Virus record (IMG/VR): IMGVR_UViG_3300033149_002277
Span: 1 to 23,518 of that record
DNA length: 23,518 nt
Direction: 5' to 3' (one strand)
From: a virus
How positions within the stretch are numbered: position 1 is the stretch's first letter; every line of letters begins with the position of its first letter. Positions 2,215-19,728 of the stretch are shown piece by piece. Under the pieces are notes generated by a model. The model did no database searches. It was not told the DNA's origin and saw nothing but the letters and a program-made list of their open reading frames with translations. A program made the position numbers and the translations under genes.

Positions 2215-2461
2215 AAAAGTAGAAAACAAAAACAGATACAAAAGTGCTGGTACACACTACTGGTACATGAATGACGGAAAAAGTGAATATCTTTTTTCTG
2301 AATCTCAAATGGAAACCGCAAAGTTGAGGGCTAAAAAAAACCCAGAAGACCTACCTGAGTATGTAGGGTTTTATAAAACTTTAGATGTTTTAGGCTATCT
2401 TTTTTGTGGATTTTTACTAGGAGGATTTCTTGTGGGGATTGTTTTTGTGAACGCTTTTTAA
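2204..2461 (+). CDS. Small C-terminally anchored membrane protein
   Basis: The 85-residue protein has a basic, polar N-terminal half (HYWYMNDGKSEYLFSESQ) and a hydrophobic, Gly-rich segment at about residues 60-83, so it looks like a tail-anchored protein with its N-terminal domain in the cytoplasm. A GAGG Shine-Dalgarno lies upstream and the start overlaps the previous gene. No family recognised. Confidence 0.6.
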   Translation: MLLKKVENKNRYKSAGTHYWYMNDGKSEYLFSESQMETAKLRAKKNPEDLPEYVGFYKTLDVLGYLFCGFLLGGFLVGIVFVNAF

Positions 2462-2473
2462 AGAGTTATTATT

Positions 2474-2788
2474 ATGAATACCAACGAACTTAATAAGATT
2501 TTAACATCTGTCTACGATGACGCATTAGAAAAAGAACACTCATGGGAAGTTTTCAATAATTTTTTAGAACTTTTTATGATGGAAGAGATGCAAACTACTG
2601 ATTATTTGTGTAGTTTAATAGAGTTAAACAGACATCAAAGATTACAGTTTAGAAGTAGTTTGGCAGAGTTGGGTTATGAGTTAACCCCAAATGAATTGAA
2701 TCAGTATATTCTATTGTTAATTATTGCTATGGGAGAATATCTTGAAGGAAAAGGAAAAGAAAATGAACTACCGCGATCTAGCGATTGA
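2474..2788 (+). CDS. Hypothetical helical protein
   Basis: A 104-residue acidic protein, probably all-helical, with regularly spaced Leu and Phe residues and no membrane segment. The AAAGAG upstream serves as a ribosome site. It overlaps the following gene by 26 bases in another frame. No conserved catalytic motif is visible and the family is not recognised. Confidence 0.6.
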   Translation: MNTNELNKILTSVYDDALEKEHSWEVFNNFLELFMMEEMQTTDYLCSLIELNRHQRLQFRSSLAELGYELTPNELNQYILLLIIAMGEYLEGKGKENELPRSSD

Positions 2789-3011
2789 AGGCCTTTACAC
2801 AAAAGCCGAGGCAGACAGAGCACAAGCCCTCGCAAGTCTTGAGATTATGCTTCAGCATCCCGCTGGAATTGGAGATCATAGTACAGATGATCTTCATGAT
2901 AATCTAAACGAGGCCCTATCGAAACTCGCAGATGCGGACGACAGACTGCAAACTTTGAAAAGATATTATGATGGTTCGTGGAGTATCTCTCCGCTGCCAG
3001 AGGATAGTTAA
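2763..3011 (+). CDS. Hypothetical Ala/Asp-rich helical protein
   Basis: I choose ATG 2763 over an in-frame ATG at 2724 because AAGGAAAAG precedes 2763 directly, and because the longer form would add 13 Lys/Glu residues lying wholly inside the upstream gene. The 82-residue product (MNYRDLAIEGLYTKAEADRA...) is soluble and helical. Codon use is richer in G/C than its neighbours. No family recognised. It ends four bases before the large repeat protein, so the two are probably co-translated. Confidence 0.65.
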   Translation: MNYRDLAIEGLYTKAEADRAQALASLEIMLQHPAGIGDHSTDDLHDNLNEALSKLADADDRLQTLKRYYDGSWSISPLPEDS

Positions 3012-3014
3012 GAA

Positions 3015-5573
3015 ATGGGGAGACCTTGCCAGTGTTGTGATGATCCTCTACCTCCTCAGGCTTGTCCTATTTATAATGACTCTCTATATGGGTATTACGA
3101 CTCAAATGAATTTGGGGGAACGCGACCATTTGACAATGTTGACTTTAATGTTAACTGGAATGCTGAAAATTTAAATACTCCTGGCCCAATAGTAGATGTT
3201 AAAAACTTTCCCAATTTTACTATTGTCACAAACAATACGTCTTTAGGAACTAATAACGGAACCAAGTTAAATGTATCTGGAACTGTTAATGGTTCCACAT
3301 CTTCACTTGGCAGCATAATTGAAAATACATCAATAAGAATAATTATAAAGTTTGTTGATGTCAACAATTATATGTTTTTGGATATACAAAATTATGGTAG
3401 ATATTATTCTGGCACCGATAATTGTGATTATGTAAAATATCAAGTCGGAGTTAAAAATGGGGGTCAAGAAACTTTAGGAGAGTTAGCATATGCCAAAGAT
3501 GGTTTTATTTATCCTATTGAGTTATGCTATGATAATCAAACACTATCTGCAAACATAACAATAAACACACTGCTTGGTCAAAACTTAAACCCTACGGCAA
3601 ATGTCACTTTAGAGCTTGACACAGAAGATAATGACGGCACAAAGGTTGGTATACTTTCTTCGGATTGGTCGCTAAGTCCTAGCGGATTAGGATCTGGATA
3701 TTTTGATTACATTAATTTTACTTTTAGTGAACATGGGGCTATAGTAGCCAACTGCCCCCTATGCGAAAAAAATACAGAATATTGCTGGAGTGCTTCGGGA
3801 GTAGGATATGATGAAATTTGGGGTTATGGAGCACCAGTTTTTAATCAAGCTACAAATAAGTATGATGTAAGTTCAAATGGTTTAACTTGTATCGATCATC
3901 CTTATCATAGGACGGAAATATGTCCCAATGGATTAACAGTAAGATTCACCGATATTGTAAACGATGGTACTTATAGAATTGTTACAAACAGCAATGGTGT
4001 AGGAAATGGCGTTTTTGCTCAGTTAAGAACAGACAATATAGGTGGTGGAATTTCAGAGGTATATGTTGAAATAGGAAAAGATAATGTAGTACTAAGTAGT
4101 TTAAAGTCAGTTTCAAATCAATTAAATCCAAATTTAGTAAATCCGTGGGATGTAACATTAAATTTATGTTTAGACGAATTTGGTATCTTGTCAGGAGAAA
4201 TAACAAGCATAACTGCCCCACAAATTATATTTTTTGAAAAAATATGTACGTTTGTGGCAGATGTTGAAACAGAAAACTTCCAAGCAGGGTATGAGATAAC
4301 ATCTTCCTGTTCTATACTTAATTTCAATTGGTATGGTACAAAAATTTCTTCAGAAGTTGATTTTGCTAGTTGTCCATCGTGTGTTGTTACGGATTGTAAT
4401 TCTGAATGTGAAATTTATCAATCCTCCTTAGAACCTACATTAATTATTGATGGTGCCGATACAGATTGGGAGACTATTCCTGCTAATCAGGGCGTTTCAG
4501 TAAATAGTTTGTCTGACGGAACTATAGTAGTAAATAAAAATACAAATGAAGGTCAGGGTGCTAGATTTGAGTTTACGGATTACTTAGGTCCAGTTAGTCT
4601 AGATACATCGCAAGATTTTAGTCGTGTTCGGTGGTGTGTAGAATTTTTAGATGAAGATAATTACCTATACGCAGAAAAAACATACAGAAAAACTGCACAG
4701 GCTAGTCTATATCAAATAGGACAAAGGGTGCAGGGCGAAGACATTCCATTACAAACAGTCGCTTGTCAATCACAGCCAATTCAAGACTCTGCAAGATTTG
4801 CAGATCTGTGTTATACTGGAAGCAACTTAGTTTTTAATTCAAGAAGACAAGTTGATGCCGATCCTGAATCCGTTGTTGCCTTTACATTAAATTCTCAAAC
4901 CGGAAGTCCTGGTGGTGGGAAAACTGCAATAAGAAGAACAGATAATTGGGGTGGCCACACTTCTGATAACAAAACGTGGATATATACAAAAAATGGGCAT
5001 CAGGCATTTGGATGTCCAACTTGTTTTGGTCAAGGCGATGATGATACAACGGATTTTCCTTCTGACGGTGGTAGCGGTGGAGACTCATGTTGCGGTCCAT
5101 TCGTTACATTTAGACTAAAAGGTGACACAGAATATGTAGTAGGACTGGCACCTTTCGGGGATGGGTGTCGCGACTACGAAGACACTCTATTTTTACAAGC
5201 TAATTGTTCTGAAAAACAACCCCCTTTTCCCGGCACAGATTTTGAAGGAGCGTGTCAATGGGCGTATATAAGATTTGAAATCGCTGTATCCGCACTTGCG
5301 AATGCCGACCCCATTCCGTTCGGCACGGTTTTAGTACAACTAATAGGATTAGATGGTTGTACTGCGAGCGGAGCTAATGTTGTAGACTTTTTTGATGGTG
5401 CGAATAATTTTGTGATAAATAGTCCAGATTGGCAAAAGTTATATTGGCTCTCCTCCCCGGATTTACCGCAGGCTCCGTGGATACCGACAACAGGCGGCCC
5501 CGGATATTGCGACATCTTTAAAAAAGACTCAACAGGATATTATATAGAAGTTAAATGTTACAAGGATGAATAA
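3015..5573 (+). CDS. Large three-repeat Cys-motif protein, probable virion surface protein
   Basis: The 852-residue protein starts with MGRPCQCC and contains three diverged repeats. Matching Cys residues in the motif (E/N/D)LC sit at 171, 385 and 599, exactly 214 apart, and each repeat closes with a CPxC pair at 247, 453 and 667. The repeats are beta-rich and Asn/Gly/Ser-rich, with stretches such as FVDVNNYMFLDI and EFLDEDNYLYAE that resemble the concanavalin-like (LamG-type) jelly-roll fold; this fold is inferred. A separate Cys-rich C-terminal domain spans about 690-852. There is no signal peptide or membrane segment. Size, repeats and lack of a leader fit a virion adhesin or fibre. It overlaps the next gene by one base (TAATG). 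Confidence 0.7.
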   Translation: MGRPCQCCDDPLPPQACPIYNDSLYGYYDSNEFGGTRPFDNVDFNVNWNAENLNTPGPIVDVKNFPNFTIVTNNTSLGTNNGTKLNVSGTVNGSTSSLGSIIENTSIRIIIKFVDVNNYMFLDIQNYGRYYSGTDNCDYVKYQVGVKNGGQETLGELAYAKDGFIYPIELCYDNQTLSANITINTLLGQNLNPTANVTLELDTEDNDGTKVGILSSDWSLSPSGLGSGYFDYINFTFSEHGAIVANCPLCEKNTEYCWSASGVGYDEIWGYGAPVFNQATNKYDVSSNGLTCIDHPYHRTEICPNGLTVRFTDIVNDGTYRIVTNSNGVGNGVFAQLRTDNIGGGISEVYVEIGKDNVVLSSLKSVSNQLNPNLVNPWDVTLNLCLDEFGILSGEITSITAPQIIFFEKICTFVADVETENFQAGYEITSSCSILNFNWYGTKISSEVDFASCPSCVVTDCNSECEIYQSSLEPTLIIDGADTDWETIPANQGVSVNSLSDGTIVVNKNTNEGQGARFEFTDYLGPVSLDTSQDFSRVRWCVEFLDEDNYLYAEKTYRKTAQASLYQIGQRVQGEDIPLQTVACQSQPIQDSARFADLCYTGSNLVFNSRRQVDADPESVVAFTLNSQTGSPGGGKTAIRRTDNWGGHTSDNKTWIYTKNGHQAFGCPTCFGQGDDDTTDFPSDGGSGGDSCCGPFVTFRLKGDTEYVVGLAPFGDGCRDYEDTLFLQANCSEKQPPFPGTDFEGACQWAYIRFEIAVSALANADPIPFGTVLVQLIGLDGCTASGANVVDFFDGANNFVINSPDWQKLYWLSSPDLPQAPWIPTTGGPGYCDIFKKDSTGYYIEVKCYKDE

Positions 5574-6611: not shown

Positions 6612-6812
6612 ATGCACAATTGGTCAAATCATGACGCTGCATTGATAAATGGTCAAATTTATAGAGTTATCTCAGTATCAAACACAAACGTTCCAGCAGT
6701 TCAAATAGATGACAGACTTATTATGGCTGAAGCCCCAGATTCTTGGAAACATGTTGGAAGATTTAAATGGGTTTGGTTTCCCAAGGCCCGTTGGAAATTT
6801 GTAGCTGCATAA
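6612..6812 (+). CDS. Hypothetical small protein
   Basis: A 66-residue protein with GGAG eight bases before its ATG, first gene after a good promoter. It is Trp-rich (WSNHDAA, SWKHVGRFKWVWFPKARWKF) and beta-like, with a run GQIYRVISVSNTNVPAVQIDDRLIMAE that could be a small SH3-like barrel. No family recognised. Confidence 0.65.
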   Translation: MHNWSNHDAALINGQIYRVISVSNTNVPAVQIDDRLIMAEAPDSWKHVGRFKWVWFPKARWKFVAA

Positions 6813-6814
6813 TT

Positions 6815-7255
6815 ATGAATAGAAAAAATTTTTTAAAAGTTCTTGGTGTTGGATTTGTACTTTCTGCCACAGGATCTTTATTGAAAAAATGTCAGAAAAG
6901 AGTTAATAATTTACTTGACATTGACGATGATTATAGTATAATATTTAAAGACCCGCCGCCACCACCTGAACCTGAACCAAAACCGGAAGCAGAACCTAAA
7001 CCAGTTATCACGGCAACTGAAACATATCATCCTGATGACGCTGTTAATAGATATAATCCAAGATGGAATGTTATGGGATCGTGGAGTGCGGCAAACAATA
7101 GAAAATCATTAATAAATCATCTTGCTGGACCAAATCATAGACACAGCAAACAAAGTTTAATTCAAATGTCTACAGATGATTTACAAAGATTACATGATAG
7201 TGATCATGGAAGTGGAAGAACTAGTAGTAGAAGAAGAGGATGGTTTTTTAGATAA
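6815..7255 (+). CDS. Pro-rich protein with Tat-like N-terminus
   Basis: I start this at ATG 6815, three bases after the previous stop; an in-frame upstream ATG at 6767 lies inside the neighbour. The 146-residue product begins MNRKNFLKVLGVGFVLSATG, a hydrophobic leader with a basic pair at 3-4 and Phe at 6, which resembles a twin-arginine signal with RK in place of RR. A Pro/Glu/Lys linker (PPPPPEPEPKPEAEPKP) follows. The C-terminal domain contains INHLAGPNHRH and a LHDSDHG His/Asp block before a basic tail. Similar His-rich short domains occur in phage proteins of unknown role. Tat export is inference. Confidence 0.65.
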   Translation: MNRKNFLKVLGVGFVLSATGSLLKKCQKRVNNLLDIDDDYSIIFKDPPPPPEPEPKPEAEPKPVITATETYHPDDAVNRYNPRWNVMGSWSAANNRKSLINHLAGPNHRHSKQSLIQMSTDDLQRLHDSDHGSGRTSSRRRGWFFR

Positions 7256-7256
7256 T

Positions 7257-7427
7257 GGTTCCGGCAGGAATCATATAGCCTGTTGGCACGGTAGGTACGA
7301 CCGCCCCTTGCGGGGATAAACGACGATATGTCGTCGATAAGACGTTCAACAGGATACCCCACTATAGGATCGCAACCTGTAGTTCAGTTCAAGGGGCGGG
7401 CGGCTACTCGTAAGGCCGCAATTTTTT
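7257..7427 (+). ncRNA. Candidate structured noncoding RNA
   Basis: No convincing ORF covers this GC-richer stretch, but complementary segments do. GGTTCC/GGAATC forms 7257-7262 with 7267-7272. CCTGTTG (7279-7285) pairs perfectly with CAACAGG (7347-7353) and encloses three hairpins: CGGT/ACCG (7289-7292/7300-7303, 7-nt loop), CCCC/GGGG (7304-7307/7312-7315) and CGACGA/TCGTCG (7321-7326/7331-7336). Downstream, CTATAGG (7362-7368) pairs with CCTGTAG (7376-7382) inside CCCC/GGGG (7357-7360/7393-7396). The last hairpin is an intrinsic terminator. It matches no RNA class I can name; I looked for RNase P, tmRNA, group I and 6S landmarks without success. It could be a standalone RNA or the 3' UTR of the upstream gene. 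Confidence 0.6.
7400..7427 (+). terminator. Intrinsic terminator of the candidate ncRNA
   Basis: GCGGC (7400-7404) pairs with GCCGC (7415-7419), followed by a T run at 7422-7427. It would end transcripts from the 6544 promoter and separate them from the tRNA region. Confidence 0.75.
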
Positions 7428-7433
7428 GTTAGG

Positions 7434-7520
7434 TGAGTGAAGTCGGAAGCGCCTGTGTGAGCAGGAAGCGATTAGACAGATGGACAACACTAGATTCGCG
7501 GGTGAAAATCCCGTCACTCA
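7434..7520 (+). other. tRNA-like element A (degenerate or novel)
   Basis: TGAGTGA (7434-7440) and TCACTCA (7514-7520) are perfect 7-nt complements placed 87 nt end to end, like an acceptor stem. Just inside the 3' strand lies a T-arm-like hairpin, GCGGG (7498-7502), 7-nt loop TGAAAAT, CCCGT (7510-7514; its last base is shared with the acceptor strand). A short CCTG/CAGG hairpin sits at 7452-7465. No convincing anticodon arm can be drawn and the loop lacks the TTC of a normal T loop, so I do not call a functional tRNA. It shares blocks with element B at 7609. Confidence 0.4.
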
Positions 7521-7536
7521 TATTTTTAACGAGTTT

Positions 7537-7607
7537 GCCACTATAGTTAAACGGTATAACTACTGATTTGTAATCAGCTATTCGGGGTTCGATTCCTCGT
7601 AGTGGCT
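7537..7607 (+). tRNA. tRNA-Thr (UGU)
   Basis: A full cloverleaf is visible. The acceptor GCCACTA/TAGTGGC is a perfect 7 bp. The D stem is GTTA/TAAC. The anticodon arm is ACTGA-TTTGTAA-TCAGC (four good pairs plus one A-C mismatch), giving anticodon TGT, which reads ACA. The T arm is CGGGG-TTCGATT-CCTCG. Position 73 is T and no CCA is encoded. ACA is a frequent Thr codon in the surrounding AT-rich genes, so the tRNA may supplement the host pool. Confidence 0.92.
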
Positions 7608-7608
7608 C

Positions 7609-7687
7609 TCTGGCTTTGCCAGATATGATTGTAGACGTTGTTATGGATATTGGCGGAGACGAGGGTGCAAATCCCTCCACGTCCACT
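7609..7687 (+). other. tRNA-like element B (degenerate or novel)
   Basis: It starts directly after the tRNA-Thr with a perfect TCTGGC-TTT-GCCAGA hairpin (7609-7623). It then has a T-arm-like hairpin, GAGGG (7661-7665), loop TGCAAAT, CCCTC (7673-7677). TAGACGT near 7632 can pair with ACGTCCA near 7680 with one mismatch. Shared with element A in order are a short hairpin, GATT(G)TAGAC, ATGGA(C/T)A, and GGGTGnAAATCCC. No anticodon arm is evident. It could be a tRNA remnant or part of a larger RNA. Confidence 0.4.
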
Positions 7688-7693
7688 TAATTT

Positions 7694-7724
7694 TCGACCA
7701 CCTCCACCGTTTTTGGTGTATAAT
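7694..7724 (+). promoter_or_regulatory. Possible promoter for the HNH gene
   Basis: TATAAT at 7719-7724 lies 30 bases before the HNH start. The best upstream match, TCGACC at 7694-7699, is weak and its 19-bp spacer is long, so this call rests mainly on the -10 box. Confidence 0.4.
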
Positions 7725-7754
7725 AATATATACCATTAAACAAAGGAGATGGAA

Positions 7755-8300
7755 ATGTCAATGATAACCGTAACGTGTGAAACCTGTAACAAAGAGTTTG
7801 AAAAAGCGAGGAACGAGTATAACAGAAAAATTAAACAAGGTAAGGATAAGTTTTATTGTAATCTGTCCTGTGCTGCGAAAAGCCCTAAAAATGTCAACCG
7901 TATAAAGGAATACGATGGGCATAAGTGGACAAAAGAAACGTGTCCGAGGCGATGGAAGCTAGACGAGTTTAGTCCATTCAGGGGTTATTTAAGAAAAGCA
8001 AAGGCAAGAAACAAAGAATTTAACTTAACGCTAGAACATCTTAAAGATATTTGGGATAGTCAAGGCGGTAAGTGTCCTTTTACTGGATTTGATTTGGAGT
8101 TAAGAACATATGATGGACATAGAGACAACCAACTAAATATCAAAAGTGCAAGTCTTGACAGGATTGATAACTCAAAAGGGTATGTCCAAGGCAATGTTAG
8201 ATGGGTTTCTGTTATGTTTAACTATGCTCGTAATACTTTTTCAGATGAAGATGTTTTAGAGTTTGCACAAGCGGTTGTAAAAAATAAGGGCGTGACTTAG
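7755..8300 (+). CDS. HNH-type endonuclease with N-terminal zinc finger
   Basis: ATG 7755 is chosen among three close ATGs because AAAGGAG ends six bases before it. The 181-residue protein has an N-terminal four-Cys finger (CETC...FYCNLSC), a basic middle (RGYLRKAKARNKEF) and a C-terminal HNH-like block, KCPFTG followed by SLDRIDNSKGYVQGNVRWV and FNYARN. That block is typical of phage HNH nucleases, many of them free-standing homing enzymes. It would nick or cut DNA. It sits among RNA elements (tRNA-Thr upstream, pseudoknot/terminator downstream), a common niche for homing nucleases. It is too small for an IscB/Cas9-like protein and has no RuvC part. Confidence 0.8.
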   Translation: MSMITVTCETCNKEFEKARNEYNRKIKQGKDKFYCNLSCAAKSPKNVNRIKEYDGHKWTKETCPRRWKLDEFSPFRGYLRKAKARNKEFNLTLEHLKDIWDSQGGKCPFTGFDLELRTYDGHRDNQLNIKSASLDRIDNSKGYVQGNVRWVSVMFNYARNTFSDEDVLEFAQAVVKNKGVT

Positions 8301-8334
8301 ATTCGATCCACAGTAAGAAGTAATAACTGCAATC

Positions 8335-8377
8335 CGTAGTTGGAATTGAGGCTACGTTAAAACAATTCCACATTTTT
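8335..8377 (+). terminator. Terminator hairpin that can fold as an H-type pseudoknot
   Basis: TGGAATTG (8341-8348) and CAATTCCA (8363-8370) make a perfect 8-bp stem followed by five Ts (8373-8377), an intrinsic terminator for the HNH transcript. CGTAG (8335-8339) just upstream is complementary to CTACG (8352-8356) inside the loop, which is the order required for an H-type pseudoknot with an A-rich third loop (TTAAAA). Confidence 0.6.
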
Positions 8378-8445
8378 AAATGCAGAACCTAGTTTTGCTT
8401 TGGCAGCGTAAGTTGCCGGGGGTGTGGCGAGCCTTTTTACCCAAA

Positions 8446-10533: not shown

Positions 10534-10932
10534 ATGTCGAATGTATTGACAAACACACTTCGTGGAGCAATGGCTCCTTGGTATCTTGAAGCAATGCACA
10601 ATGCACATGCCAAGCAAAACTATCCACCCCACAGCGTTCTTAAGCTGGGTGATGATACTCTGGTTCTTCAAATGGCATTAGTTGGTATTAATCCAGAGGA
10701 TTTGTCTTTAGAGTCAACTGGAAATAAATTCACCATCTCTTATGACCCATCGCCAACAGATGTGAAAATTGATGCCCAATATAGGGGTATTTCAACACGA
10801 AAGTTCCGAAAGTCATTTAGACTTGAAGAACCTTGGGAAGTTTCTAGTGCAACTCTGAACAATGGTTTGCTAGAAGTGACAGTATCACAAGTAAAAGAAC
10901 CAGTTAAAACAATTGAGATCAAGGTGAAATAA
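10534..10932 (+). CDS. Small heat-shock protein, Hsp20/alpha-crystallin family
   Basis: The 132-residue protein has the alpha-crystallin domain. YPPHSVLKLGDDTLVLQMALVGINPEDLSLE forms the first strands, YRGISTRKFRKSFRLEEPWEV the middle, and LNNGLLEVTV carries the family's G-hydrophobic-L motif. The C-terminus KTIEIKVK supplies an I-x-I motif used in oligomer assembly. Hsp20 proteins hold unfolding proteins in a refoldable state; many T4-like and marine phages carry one, possibly to protect virion proteins or the infected cell. AGGAG precedes the ATG. The next small membrane gene follows at once. Confidence 0.88.
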   Translation: MSNVLTNTLRGAMAPWYLEAMHNAHAKQNYPPHSVLKLGDDTLVLQMALVGINPEDLSLESTGNKFTISYDPSPTDVKIDAQYRGISTRKFRKSFRLEEPWEVSSATLNNGLLEVTVSQVKEPVKTIEIKVK

Positions 10933-11100
10933 TTGAAGGTTCTCGATTATCTTATTTTTGCAATGCCGTCAATTGTGGCGGCATTGTATTTTACTGTAGG
11001 TTTGTGTTATTTTATAAAAAATGACTTTGCCTGGGCTTTGGTTTGGATTTCTTATGCCTTGGCAAATGTCGGACTCGTACTAATCGGATTGAGGAATTGA
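10933..11100 (+). CDS. 55-residue two-helix membrane protein (TTG start)
   Basis: A frame directly after the Hsp20 stop opens with TTG at 10933 and ends with TGA at 11098-11100, one base before the next ATG. It encodes KVLDYLIFAMPSIVAALYF...ALVWISYALANVGLVLIG, two hydrophobic helices around a short KNDF turn. AAGGTG near 10921 is the ribosome site. The alternative ATG at 10963 would remove most of the first helix, so TTG is preferred. The perfect packing between two genes supports it. Function unknown; a hairpin-type membrane protein. Confidence 0.6.
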   Translation: MKVLDYLIFAMPSIVAALYFTVGLCYFIKNDFAWALVWISYALANVGLVLIGLRN

Positions 11101-13059: not shown

Positions 13060-13812
13060 ATGCCAATTCCACAAAGAAAAAACGATGAATCTAAAGAGAA
13101 TTTTTTGTCACGATGCATGTCTGACGAAGTTATGAAAAAAGAATATCCAGACAATAAACAGAGAGTTGCTGTTTGTATGTCAAAGGCTTCGGCGGGACTT
13201 TCTGCCGTGGAGTCTGCCGACTTTCAATACAATGTAGAAAATTACGGATTTGTAGAAGAGGTTACTGAAGATAATTTTTATATTCCCTCGGAAGCAGAAT
13301 ATGTAGATTTTAACGAGGTTGAGGAGGACTGGGATATTGCAATCGCAAAACCTGGACTCTGGGAAAACATTCGTAAAAAGAAGGAAAGAGAGGGCAAAAA
13401 ATATAAACCAGCAAAACCTGGAGATCCTGATCGTCCAGATCCTGATGCCTGGAAAAAGGCTCAGTCAAAATATAAATATGAGAATCCTAAAACTGGAGAA
13501 GTGTTTATATACACAAGACAGGGTAATTATAAAAAGGATGGTGTTAACTTAGTATACAAAGGCAAGGCTGCAAAATACAAAGGGAGAACAGTTAAACTGA
13601 ATAAACCCTTTAGAACTCCAGGCGGTCCTAAAAAGTTCGCAGTTTATGTAAAAAACAAAAGCGGAAAAGTTATCATTGTTAGGTTTGGTGATCCAAACAT
13701 GGAAATCAAAAAAGATAATCCAGACAGAAGAAGATCTTTTAGAGCTAGACATAAGTGCGATACAGCAAAAGATAAAACAACGCCAAGATATTGGAGTTGT
13801 AAGATGTGGTAA
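13060..13812 (+). CDS. Conserved phage head-type protein
   Basis: ATG 13060 is chosen because GGAGG lies five bases before it; ATG 13048 upstream lacks a site. The 250-residue protein starts MPIPQRKNDESKENFLSRCM...YPDNKQRVAVC, a short motif common at the N-terminus of phage head or prohead-protease-associated proteins. The middle (GLWENIRKKKEREGKKYKPAKPGDPDRPDPDAWKKAQ) and the C-terminal block (FGDPNMEIKKDNPDRRRSFRARHKCD...RYWSCKMW) are also familiar from tailed-phage virion genes. Function is not defined; a capsid-associated or scaffold role is the best guess. It follows DUF1501 by 16 bases. Confidence 0.75.
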   Translation: MPIPQRKNDESKENFLSRCMSDEVMKKEYPDNKQRVAVCMSKASAGLSAVESADFQYNVENYGFVEEVTEDNFYIPSEAEYVDFNEVEEDWDIAIAKPGLWENIRKKKEREGKKYKPAKPGDPDRPDPDAWKKAQSKYKYENPKTGEVFIYTRQGNYKKDGVNLVYKGKAAKYKGRTVKLNKPFRTPGGPKKFAVYVKNKSGKVIIVRFGDPNMEIKKDNPDRRRSFRARHKCDTAKDKTTPRYWSCKMW

Positions 13813-13891: not shown

Positions 13892-14977
13892 ATGTCAGAA
13901 TTGAAAATAAATGCACCAATAAATAACTTAGGATATGGGGTCGCTGGATACAATATTTTTAAAGAGTTATATCAACTTCATCCATCCACGGCCCTTTATC
14001 CTATTTCTAAACCAGAATTTGTAGATAAAATTGTTGAGGCGGGTTTAAACAATAGAGAGAAGTCTTCTGTACATGATCCATGTGTAAAGATTTGGCATCA
14101 AAATGATATACATTCCCATATCGGAAAGGGTTTGCATATAGGATTTCCAATCTTTGAATTAACAGAATTCTCTTCAGAAGAGAAGTTGAGCATGAATCAT
14201 TGCGACAAGCTTTTTGTTTGTTCAAAATGGGCAAAAGAAATCGTAGGTCGAGTATTCAATAAATTGAGAGATATCCACGTTGTTCCGCTTGGTGTTGACA
14301 CTAAAATCTTTAAACCTTTTAATTCCACAAGAGATCAGACTATTTTCTTTAATTGTGGCAAATGGGAAAAGAGAAAGGGTCATGATGTTTTGTTAGAGTG
14401 TTTCAATAAAGCATTTAACTCTGGGGACAATGTAGAACTTTGGATGATGTGCGACAATCCATTTATTGGGCAGGACAATCAAAGATGGATAAATCTCTAT
14501 AAAGGTTCGCCTCTTGGCGACAAAATAAGGATAATTCCAAGACAGAAAACTCAAAAAGATGTGTATAATATAATGAAACAGACCGATTGTGGAGTGTTTC
14601 CGGCAAGAGCAGAAGGGTGGAATTTAGAACTACTGGAAATGATGGCTTGTGGAAAAGATGTTATTACTACTAATTATTCAGCCCACACCGAATTCTGCAA
14701 CAAAGAAAATTCTTTTTTAGTAGAAATTGACAATCTTGAACGAGCTTTTGATGGAGTTTTCTTTTCTGGTTCTCATGGAGAATGGGCAAAAATAGACAAT
14801 TCTGCAAAAGATCAGCTCATAGAACATATGAGAAATGTTCATGGTGTTAAACAACAATACACAAATGGCTGGAAAAAAGATATGCGTAATAAGTGTTTAA
14901 ATCATGGCGGTATAGAAACGGCCAATAAGTTCACATGGAAAAACTCAGCAAAGGAGTTGTTAAATGGAATCGTTTAA
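13892..14977 (+). CDS. GT-B family glycosyltransferase
   Basis: The protein of about 361 residues is a family GT4/GT1-type glycosyltransferase. IHVVPLGVDTKIFKP, FFNCGKWEKRKGHDVLLECF and the donor-site ExxxxxxxE motif E241-GWNLELL-E249 before MACGKDVITTNYSAHTEFC are clear. It would move a sugar from a nucleotide sugar to an unknown acceptor in the cytoplasm. The first residues INAPINNLGYGVAGYN fit the usual N-terminal Rossmann start, so I favour ATG 13892; ATG 13880 is possible, and neither has a strong ribosome site. It overlaps the peptidase gene by 14 bases, hinting at a joint role, such as virion or envelope modification. Confidence 0.85.
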   Translation: MSELKINAPINNLGYGVAGYNIFKELYQLHPSTALYPISKPEFVDKIVEAGLNNREKSSVHDPCVKIWHQNDIHSHIGKGLHIGFPIFELTEFSSEEKLSMNHCDKLFVCSKWAKEIVGRVFNKLRDIHVVPLGVDTKIFKPFNSTRDQTIFFNCGKWEKRKGHDVLLECFNKAFNSGDNVELWMMCDNPFIGQDNQRWINLYKGSPLGDKIRIIPRQKTQKDVYNIMKQTDCGVFPARAEGWNLELLEMMACGKDVITTNYSAHTEFCNKENSFLVEIDNLERAFDGVFFSGSHGEWAKIDNSAKDQLIEHMRNVHGVKQQYTNGWKKDMRNKCLNHGGIETANKFTWKNSAKELLNGIV

Positions 14978-15884
14978 ATCTCCAGAAGATATAGTGGAAT
15001 CATATAACAGTGGTTTTGTAGGCGCATTTTGCGACGAAGAAGATTTAAAAAAGTTACTTGGCGAGCTTCCTATGCCCGTCTTTGGTGCTGCTGCATATGA
15101 CCTTTATGAGTCTGGAAAGGGTAAATTGAGTTTACCTTTTAAGATTCTCTTAGAGTTTGACCCAGGTCATGGACCTGCGGAGCGTCAAACAACGGGAGAC
15201 TGCGTAAGTCACGCCACAAGAAACGCTGTAGATATTACAAGAGCAGTTGAGATTAAAAATGGAGATAGAGAAGAGTTTATGGCTCGTGGTGCGACAGAAG
15301 CAATTTACCAAAGTCGCGGTCACAGGGGGCAAGGAATGTCGTGTTCAGGAGCCGCTAGATATGTTCATCAAAAGGGTGGACTTCTGATACGAAAAGATTA
15401 TGGAGATATTGATCTTTCTACTTACAATTCTAGAATTGGATCTTCTCATCAAATCCCAGATAGCATCTACACAACTGAAGCTCAAAAACATCAAGTAAAA
15501 ACCATTTCCAATGTTAGAAGTGTCGAAGAGGCTCGCGATGCATTGGCAAATGGATATGCCCTTTCTGTTTGTTCTGGTTACGGATTTTCCAGTAAAAGAG
15601 ATGAAAAGGGTATAGCAAGCAGAAGAGGTGGATGGAGTCATGCTATGGCATGGACTGCCTGTGACGACACTAGAGAAAGGTATGATGAAACTCTTTTCCT
15701 AGTCCAAAACAGTTGGGGGAAGTGGAATGGTGGTCCCAAAGTCCACGACCAACCAGATGGAAGCTTCTGGATTAGAGAAAAGGATGCCGCCGGTATGCTT
15801 AGAGGCGGTGGAGCATTTGTGTTCAGTGATGTAGATGGTTTTCCTGCCAGAAAAGTAGACTTTACAATAGACGAGGTTTTTTAA
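14964..15884 (+). CDS. Papain-like (C1 family) cysteine peptidase
   Basis: The 306-residue protein carries all four papain landmarks: Q75 (oxyanion hole) and C80 in RQTTGDCVSHA, H226 in GGWSHAMAW and N249 in VQNSWGKWNGGP. No signal peptide or long propeptide is visible; about 70 residues precede the active site. By family it would cleave peptide bonds; other clan members form transglutaminase- or amidase-like activities. Its 14-base overlap with the glycosyltransferase and one-base coupling (TAATG) to the exported Cys-rich protein suggest a structural-maturation or envelope role. Intact catalytic residues imply activity. Confidence 0.85.
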   Translation: MESFKSPEDIVESYNSGFVGAFCDEEDLKKLLGELPMPVFGAAAYDLYESGKGKLSLPFKILLEFDPGHGPAERQTTGDCVSHATRNAVDITRAVEIKNGDREEFMARGATEAIYQSRGHRGQGMSCSGAARYVHQKGGLLIRKDYGDIDLSTYNSRIGSSHQIPDSIYTTEAQKHQVKTISNVRSVEEARDALANGYALSVCSGYGFSSKRDEKGIASRRGGWSHAMAWTACDDTRERYDETLFLVQNSWGKWNGGPKVHDQPDGSFWIREKDAAGMLRGGGAFVFSDVDGFPARKVDFTIDEVF

Positions 15885-16390
15885 TGAATAATTCAACAAG
15901 AATTTTAGCTGGTGGAATGGTGTTGACTATTGGATTACTGTTCGGAATTGGAAGCAGTTTCTCGCATTCTGTATCTAATGAAGAGGCTAATAAGATCCTT
16001 AGTGACACAATAAAAGCTTTTCAGGGTGCAGAGAGTGACGTGTTTAAAAAGCCTATAGTTCCTGAACCTGATGGTCCACATCCAGATGTTGAAAAATGTG
16101 TATGCAAAGGAACTGGTAAAATAACTCACGGGGATGGTCACACATCTCCATGTCCTTATCATGGAAGTAAGCAAAGTTCGTCAACGGAGAGAAAGTTAGA
16201 CTGTATTTGTAAATGTGTAGTTAGAGATGAAAACGGAAAATTAGTGACTGTTTGCGGTTGTATAAAAAAGTATGGAAAGTGTAGTTGCAATAAGCCAAAA
16301 ACTACCACCACTACCACTTCTACAACCACAAGAAAAACAATGTCAACTACAATTCCAAGAACATATTCTACAAGTAGAAGGTCTAGATGA
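15884..16390 (+). CDS. Anchored Cys/Thr-rich protein with DnaJ-like Cys motif
   Basis: The 168-residue protein begins with a signal anchor (about residues 5-28) and then a Ser/Glu-rich linker. The motif CVCKGTGKITHGDGHTSPCPYH follows at about 72-93; it resembles the CxxCxGxG zinc-binding repeat of DnaJ and, from memory, a motif frequent in planctomycete membrane proteins. A second cluster, CICKCVV...CGCIKKYGKCSC, is also Cys-dense. The end is a Thr/Ser/Arg tail with six consecutive Thr. It is probably periplasmic or surface-exposed with disulfides or zinc. Coupled to the peptidase by TAATG. Confidence 0.7.
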   Translation: MNNSTRILAGGMVLTIGLLFGIGSSFSHSVSNEEANKILSDTIKAFQGAESDVFKKPIVPEPDGPHPDVEKCVCKGTGKITHGDGHTSPCPYHGSKQSSSTERKLDCICKCVVRDENGKLVTVCGCIKKYGKCSCNKPKTTTTTTSTTTRKTMSTTIPRTYSTSRRSR

Positions 16391-19648: not shown

Positions 19649-19728
19649 GTATTGGAACTTGGATCTTCTATCGGAAATTAGGAAATTATAATCGTTTTAT
19701 TTACTAATTTTTGGTAGGAGATTTTATT

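Follow-up and report, generated by a model that had tools for sequence, protein, structure and literature searches.

A strongly folded stretch (RNA-1) and a predicted permuted two-piece tmRNA with an HNH gene between its pieces lie close together in the window analysed here, a 23.5-kb virus fragment from IMG/VR (23,518 nt, GC content 36%). The folded stretch at 7257–7427 is real as an observation, and every feature that an initial annotation of this DNA had named in it is present. We favour the reading that RNA-1 is a genuine stable non-coding RNA with which a phage cassette of stable RNAs begins, and regard it as an even call. The firmest new result of the analysis is the HNH-split permuted tmRNA, tmRNA being the RNA that rescues stuck ribosomes. 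The coordinates of all features are collected in Table 1.

Table 1. Features of the window between RNA-1 and the end of the tmRNA locus, with the evidence for each
Feature	Position	Strand	Evidence or description
RNA-1, structured stretch, putatively non-coding	7257–7427	+	Minimum free energy (MFE), shuffles, no Rfam match
H1, 5′ hairpin 7257–7262/7267–7272	7257–7272	+	Pair probability ~0.75
H2, closing helix of the initial annotation, 7279–7285/7347–7353	7279–7353	+	8 pairs including G7286–U7346; outside the minimum fold; crosses H3
H3, 10-bp helix 7301–7310/7390–7399	7301–7399	+	Probability 0.95–1.0
H4, hairpin 7321–7326/7331–7336	7321–7336	+	Present in both folds
H5, hairpin 7361–7368/7376–7383	7361–7383	+	Probability 0.87–1.0; present in both folds
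Intrinsic terminator, stem 7400–7405/7414–7419, then AA and six Ts	7400–7427	+	Predicted terminator-like site
RNA-2, tRNA-like element, then ATTTTT	7433–7521	+	7-bp acceptor-like stem 7433–7439/7515–7521, T-arm 7498–7514
tRNA-Thr (TGT)	7537–7608	+	tRNA scan, Rfam
Hairpin TCTGGC-TTT-GCCAGA, between tRNA-Thr and tmRNA acceptor piece	7609–7623	+	Sequence
tmRNA acceptor piece; T-arm 7661–7677, acceptor 3′ strand 7678–7684	7630–7687	+	RF00023 positions 294–374, E 4.2e-5 in 1.6 kb
HNH/endonuclease VII-like gene in tmRNA intervening segment	7749–8300	+	PHROG 3322, E 9e-27
tmRNA coding piece; acceptor 5′ strand 8288–8294, D-loop-like ATTCGA, PK1, tag, terminator	8288–8435	+	RF00023 E 3.1e-5 in 1.6 kb
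tmRNA tag frame, AEPSFALAA and stop	8382–8411	+	Translation

Folding of RNA-1 and the search for its relatives

RNA-1 is approximately 165–170 nt long and starts 2 nt past the stop codon of an upstream open reading frame (ORF; 6767–7255). As had been noted at the outset, the stretch is comparatively rich in GC: at 53%, against 36% for the window, it is the richest 170-base stretch present. The initial annotation had proposed a comparison with dinucleotide-shuffled sequence, and RNA-1 folds clearly better than such controls, with an MFE of −65.5 kcal/mol against a shuffle mean of −50.3 kcal/mol (z = −3.48); not one of 200 shuffles reached so low an energy. The shuffle test, repeated independently, gave a z of −4.1. 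Among 467 plus-strand 170-base segments of the contig, RNA-1 has the lowest MFE and ranks seventh by z; values of z similar to or below its own occur elsewhere in the window, at lower GC. Segments at 19657, 10857–10957 and 13657–13807 have z values of about −3.9 to −4.9, with higher (weaker) energies than that of RNA-1. The stretch had also been described as free of ORFs, which is true of longer ones; a 34-codon open frame with an ATG start (7328–7432) crosses its 3′ half. A promoter search near 7257 yielded no convincing candidate.

The helices listed by the initial annotation can all be located. The 7-bp closing helix (H2) consists entirely of Watson–Crick pairs, and three hairpins are found at 7289–7292/7300–7303, 7304–7307/7312–7315 and H4, followed by a nested pair, in which 7357–7360/7393–7396 encloses H5, and by the terminator stem with its six Ts. 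The three-hairpin core does not survive as the main structure, however, because a stronger helix that the annotation lacked, H3, competes with it or crosses it. H3 comprises ten perfect pairs, is the strongest helix available in RNA-1 (−20.0 kcal/mol) and shares bases with the nested helix 7357–7360/7393–7396 as well as with two hairpins of the core. When H2 is forced, the energy is −62.0 kcal/mol, a cost of 3.5 kcal/mol relative to the minimum, and the probability of H2 in the nested ensemble is near zero; the terminator, like H4 and H5, is common to both folds. Because H3 excludes two core hairpins and crosses H2, the core is modelled either as a bistable structure or as an H-type pseudoknot whose long loops contain hairpins. 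The number of short perfect helices had been taken as a signature of a non-coding RNA, but individually such helices are not unusual: 59 of 500 shuffles contained at least two Watson–Crick helices of at least 7 bp. A helix as strong as H3 occurred in one of 500 shuffles, and a crossing pair of helices as strong as H3 with the 7/8-bp H2 likewise in one of 500.

The initial annotation could place RNA-1 in no nameable class, and the Rfam check that it suggested bears this out: a scan of 7200–7760 gave no match to RNA-1 at the gathering score, nor at E ≤ 10. A group I intron, RNase P, 6S, GOLLD and ROOL were rejected on this result. A tRNA was rejected for the lack of a model match, and a tmRNA piece for the lack of an RF00023 match there, both pieces being located elsewhere. 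An HDV-like ribozyme, which has the same helix crossing order, was rejected by eye, as P1 lacks the initial G and P3/L3 do not fit. RNA-1 had been described as a structured RNA of no known class that carries its own terminator; of this description, structure beyond that of shuffles and the absence of a known family are upheld, and the specific core is not.

Relatives of RNA-1 were sought in several ways. By blastn, phage records and plasmids returned the tRNA-Thr only, or nothing. Exact patterns from RNA-1 had no matches in IMG/VR, or none with extended similarity among the matches listed, and two patterns gave zero matches in GTDB genomes. For comparison, 80 related viral loci were collected with a profile built on the DUF1501 protein of the window; an 852-aa protein used as the query retrieved no kin. 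A single-sequence covariance model of RNA-1, which scores its own source sequence in the window at 196.7 bits, found nothing in 85 loci or in more than 50 related records. Because a model of this kind is weak on diverged relatives, the absence of matches limits a family of RNA-1 without excluding one. In the relatives found through the upstream gene (6767–7255), the element is absent; in two contigs that carry this gene, L002 and L128, the next gene follows directly.

The two-piece tmRNA and its neighbours

The initial annotation did not mention a split tmRNA, a neighbour of RNA-1 that we consider important. The acceptor piece reads TGTAGACGTTGTTATGG...GAGGGTGCAAATCCCTCCACGTCCACT, and the coding piece contains, in order from 8288, GGGCGTG, ATTCGA, the pseudoknot PK1 (8335–8356 with 8363–8370) and the tag GCAGAACCTAGTTTTGCTTTGGCAGCGTAA, translated as AEPSFALAA, before a terminator-like stem at 8413–8430. 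The tag ends in the small residues ALAA and is near-identical to tags of kin (AEPSFAIAA, AEPSLALAA and AKPSFALAA). In an alignment of the window with four permuted kin tmRNAs and that of the contig L269, the inter-piece acceptor stem and the T-arm are 100% paired, and four pairs are changed on both sides; when the partners were slid by one to three columns as a control, no double-sided changes were observed. At pair 4 of this stem, the window has C–G where the kin have the reverse, G–C. With its covarying inter-piece stem, 7630–8435 is, at the level of comparative structure prediction, a permuted two-piece tmRNA.

A plain scan misses this tmRNA, because RF00023 gives its pieces 18.6 and 19.0 bits when each is scored alone, below the cut-off of 47, and ARAGORN is silent, even when the insert is deleted in silico. 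The tmRNAs of related records guided its reading in two pieces. Of 50 such records, 18 have a tmRNA of standard form and four others a permuted one, scoring above the Rfam cut-offs, with tags that include VEENFALAA, AEPSFAIAA and AKPSFALAA.

The 3′ end of the HNH gene, with its stop codon, lies within the opening bases of the coding piece (8288 on). The sole relative of its protein found in IMG/VR (56% identity) is encoded by L269, where the gene also lies between the acceptor piece (2372–2429) and the coding piece (from 3040) of a permuted tmRNA (locus 2372–3161; tag AGRNVAMAA); the nesting of an HNH gene in a tmRNA is therefore a recurrent one. In a 2025 survey of 97,179 tmRNAs (PMC11915505), homing endonucleases are described only for group I introns of the T-loop, and a tRNA and a repetitive element are all that is mentioned for intervening segments. 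No report of an HNH gene nested in a tmRNA was found in the open-licence literature. We infer that the intervening segment is removed during tmRNA maturation, so that the HNH gene would be harmless in this proposed safe harbour.

Between RNA-1 and the tmRNA lie RNA-2, the tRNA-Thr gene and a short hairpin; comparable hairpins stand 5′ of the acceptor piece in L246, L247 and L269. RNA-2 combines an acceptor-like stem and a T-arm with an interior that is not tRNA-like, and its fold z is only −1.6. It did not match tRNA models, no 7-nt anticodon loop was seen by eye, and it lacks a cloverleaf with an anticodon arm. In L269, a tRNA-like element with an acceptor stem, a T-arm and three non-tRNA hairpins (~2231–2350) is located just before the tmRNA, a placement much like that of RNA-2. 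The same contig contains, at 1658–1796, tRNA halves (GCCGCAT/ATGCGGC acceptor) split by an insert with a promoter-like TTGACA–TATAGT.

The records behind loci L131 to L209 are phages with Tat-signal DUF1501 proteins, in which tmRNA is common, in standard or permuted form; DUF1501 leads us to guess at planctomycete-type hosts. Apart from the near-identical contig L130, L131 has the most similar DUF1501 protein. The spacers in its tRNA array are 60–225 nt long and GC-rich, several have z < −2 (down to −3.4), and Rfam finds tRNAs only in the array; folded, family-less RNAs between tRNAs thus appear to recur in this lineage. Kinship of RNA-2 with these spacers was rejected, as only an 11-mer is common to them, which we treat as chance. 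A promoter and a folded leader are located at the head of the L131 tRNA array (14200–16300). On the reverse strand of L271, a stem motif is repeated 5′ of tRNA-Gly and tRNA-Asn; its copies, GTAGATTGCAGATTCATC...GCTGTAATCGAATGTT and GTAGAATACAGCTTCATC...CCTGTATTCGCTTGTT, differ by paired changes in the stem.

Possible roles of RNA-1

As a stable RNA, RNA-1 would open a cassette in the order RNA-1, tRNA-like RNA-2, tRNA-Thr and permuted two-piece tmRNA, the intervening segment of the last carrying a gene for an HNH homing endonuclease. RNA-1 would be transcribed either together with the upstream gene or from a weak promoter close to its own 5′ end, and its transcript would end at 7400–7427. The RNA would fold around H3, H4 and H5, with H2 as a crossing (pseudoknot) helix or a competing fold, and would persist during infection, like rnaC and rnaD of phage T4; its terminator might shield the genes for tRNA and tmRNA from messenger transcription arriving from upstream. 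The position of RNA-1 leads us to guess at a service role in a phage translation cassette. Excess folding, the GC-rich island, the terminator, the lack of an Rfam match, the adjacent tRNA-Thr and tmRNA, the folded spacers of the L131 tRNA array and a comparable layout in T4 all argue for a stable RNA. Against it stand the zero homologues found, the lack of a convincing promoter at 7257, the lack of sequence similarity to rnaC or rnaD, and the similar or lower z values in other parts of the window.

RNA-1 could instead belong to the upstream protein operon, whose last gene is 6767–7255, as its terminator and structured 3′ untranslated region, with no separate role. Its start immediately past the stop codon, its end in the first terminator-like site, and the lack of a good promoter between that codon and that site are consistent with this explanation. 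However, approximately 30 nt suffice for a terminator, and 140 nt more are folded beyond expectation; RNA-1 is also far richer in GC than the adjoining genes, and L002 and L128 share the upstream gene without such an element. We consider an untranslated region unlikely.

The two mutually exclusive folds, only 3.5 kcal/mol apart, would also suit a regulatory leader of the attenuator or riboswitch-like kind, in which competing folds determine whether transcription stops at 7400–7427 or reads through into the tRNA and tmRNA genes. The terminator lies directly 5′ of these stable-RNA genes, and in phage Melnitz a two-piece tmRNA is accompanied by a riboswitch (PMC9004378). Yet the terminator stem is intact in both folds, given that H3 ends at 7399 and the stem starts at 7400, and the only clear antiterminator pairing (7301–7306/7398–7403) is a register of H3 weaker than H3 itself (−11.6 versus −20.0 kcal/mol). 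No match to a known riboswitch class was found, and a leader of this kind seems to us improbable.

Quite improbable, too, is a non-functional remnant or chance fold, in which GC-rich DNA, foreign or from decayed stable-RNA genes, happens to fold well. Relatives were absent from every search, and other segments of the contig have similar z values, but none of the 200 shuffles folds as well, H3 and its crossing pair were each matched in one of 500, and the terminator-like site at the end is intact. Finally, the 3′ half of RNA-1 might be a gene for a 34-residue peptide rather than an RNA, the frame being open and starting with ATG; no ribosome-binding site precedes the ATG, the frame crosses the terminator stem and T-run, frames of this length are common by chance and no relative was found, which leaves this reading almost without credence.

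Beyond the stable-RNA reading, which we continue to favour, a broader proposal combines an undescribed pseudoknotted RNA with a two-piece tmRNA that works and offers, in its intervening segment, a safe harbour to the HNH gene, RNA-1 and RNA-2 forming a new, fast-evolving class of stable RNA in phage tRNA/tmRNA arrays; we advance it tentatively, as falling somewhat short of probable. If our reading of the cassette is right, gene finders overlook in some phages a small translation-support cassette of a tRNA, a ribosome-rescue RNA and folded RNAs that are as yet unexplained. The HNH-in-tmRNA arrangement would likewise let a homing gene reside inside a conserved RNA gene without an intron and leave that gene unbroken.

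Comparison with known systems

Permuted two-piece tmRNAs are known in phages, for example Melnitz (PMC9004378). The tmRNA of the window shares with the permuted family RF04321 the acceptor-then-coding order, the inter-piece acceptor stem, the T-arm, a PK1-like pairing and the ALAA tag end; it differs in having approximately 600 nt with an HNH gene between its pieces and in falling below detection by Rfam and ARAGORN. The spacers of L131 resemble RNA-1 in being GC-rich, folded and without a family, but have no sequence or model match to it. GOLLD and ROOL are structured non-coding RNAs near tRNA genes in phage and prophage DNA, and the initial annotation compared RNA-1 to them in its position near a tRNA, with the reservation that it is much shorter. 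Both points hold, and the likeness is one of position only: GOLLD and ROOL are several hundred nucleotides long and have Rfam families, whereas RNA-1, at ~170 nt, matches neither at E ≤ 10.

The rnaC (139 nt) and rnaD (119 nt) of T4 are, in our analysis, a closer parallel to RNA-1 than GOLLD and ROOL are. They are non-tRNA RNAs in a tRNA cluster with a homing endonuclease gene, segB, and the window's cassette is alike, in that the phage tRNA cluster next to RNA-1 also includes a gene for a homing endonuclease. Like RNA-1, they have no Rfam match, and rnaC ends in a T-arm, as RNA-2 does. RNA-1 has no sequence similarity to either (blastn, word size 5; best E ~1 for RNA-1), the T4 cluster is without the tmRNA that the window's cassette has, and rnaC and rnaD are annotated as stable, whereas the stability of RNA-1 is a prediction. 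To our knowledge, the role of rnaC and rnaD has so far gone unanswered; if our reading of RNA-1 is true, the function of stable RNAs in phage tRNA clusters could be studied in the window's cassette as a second system.
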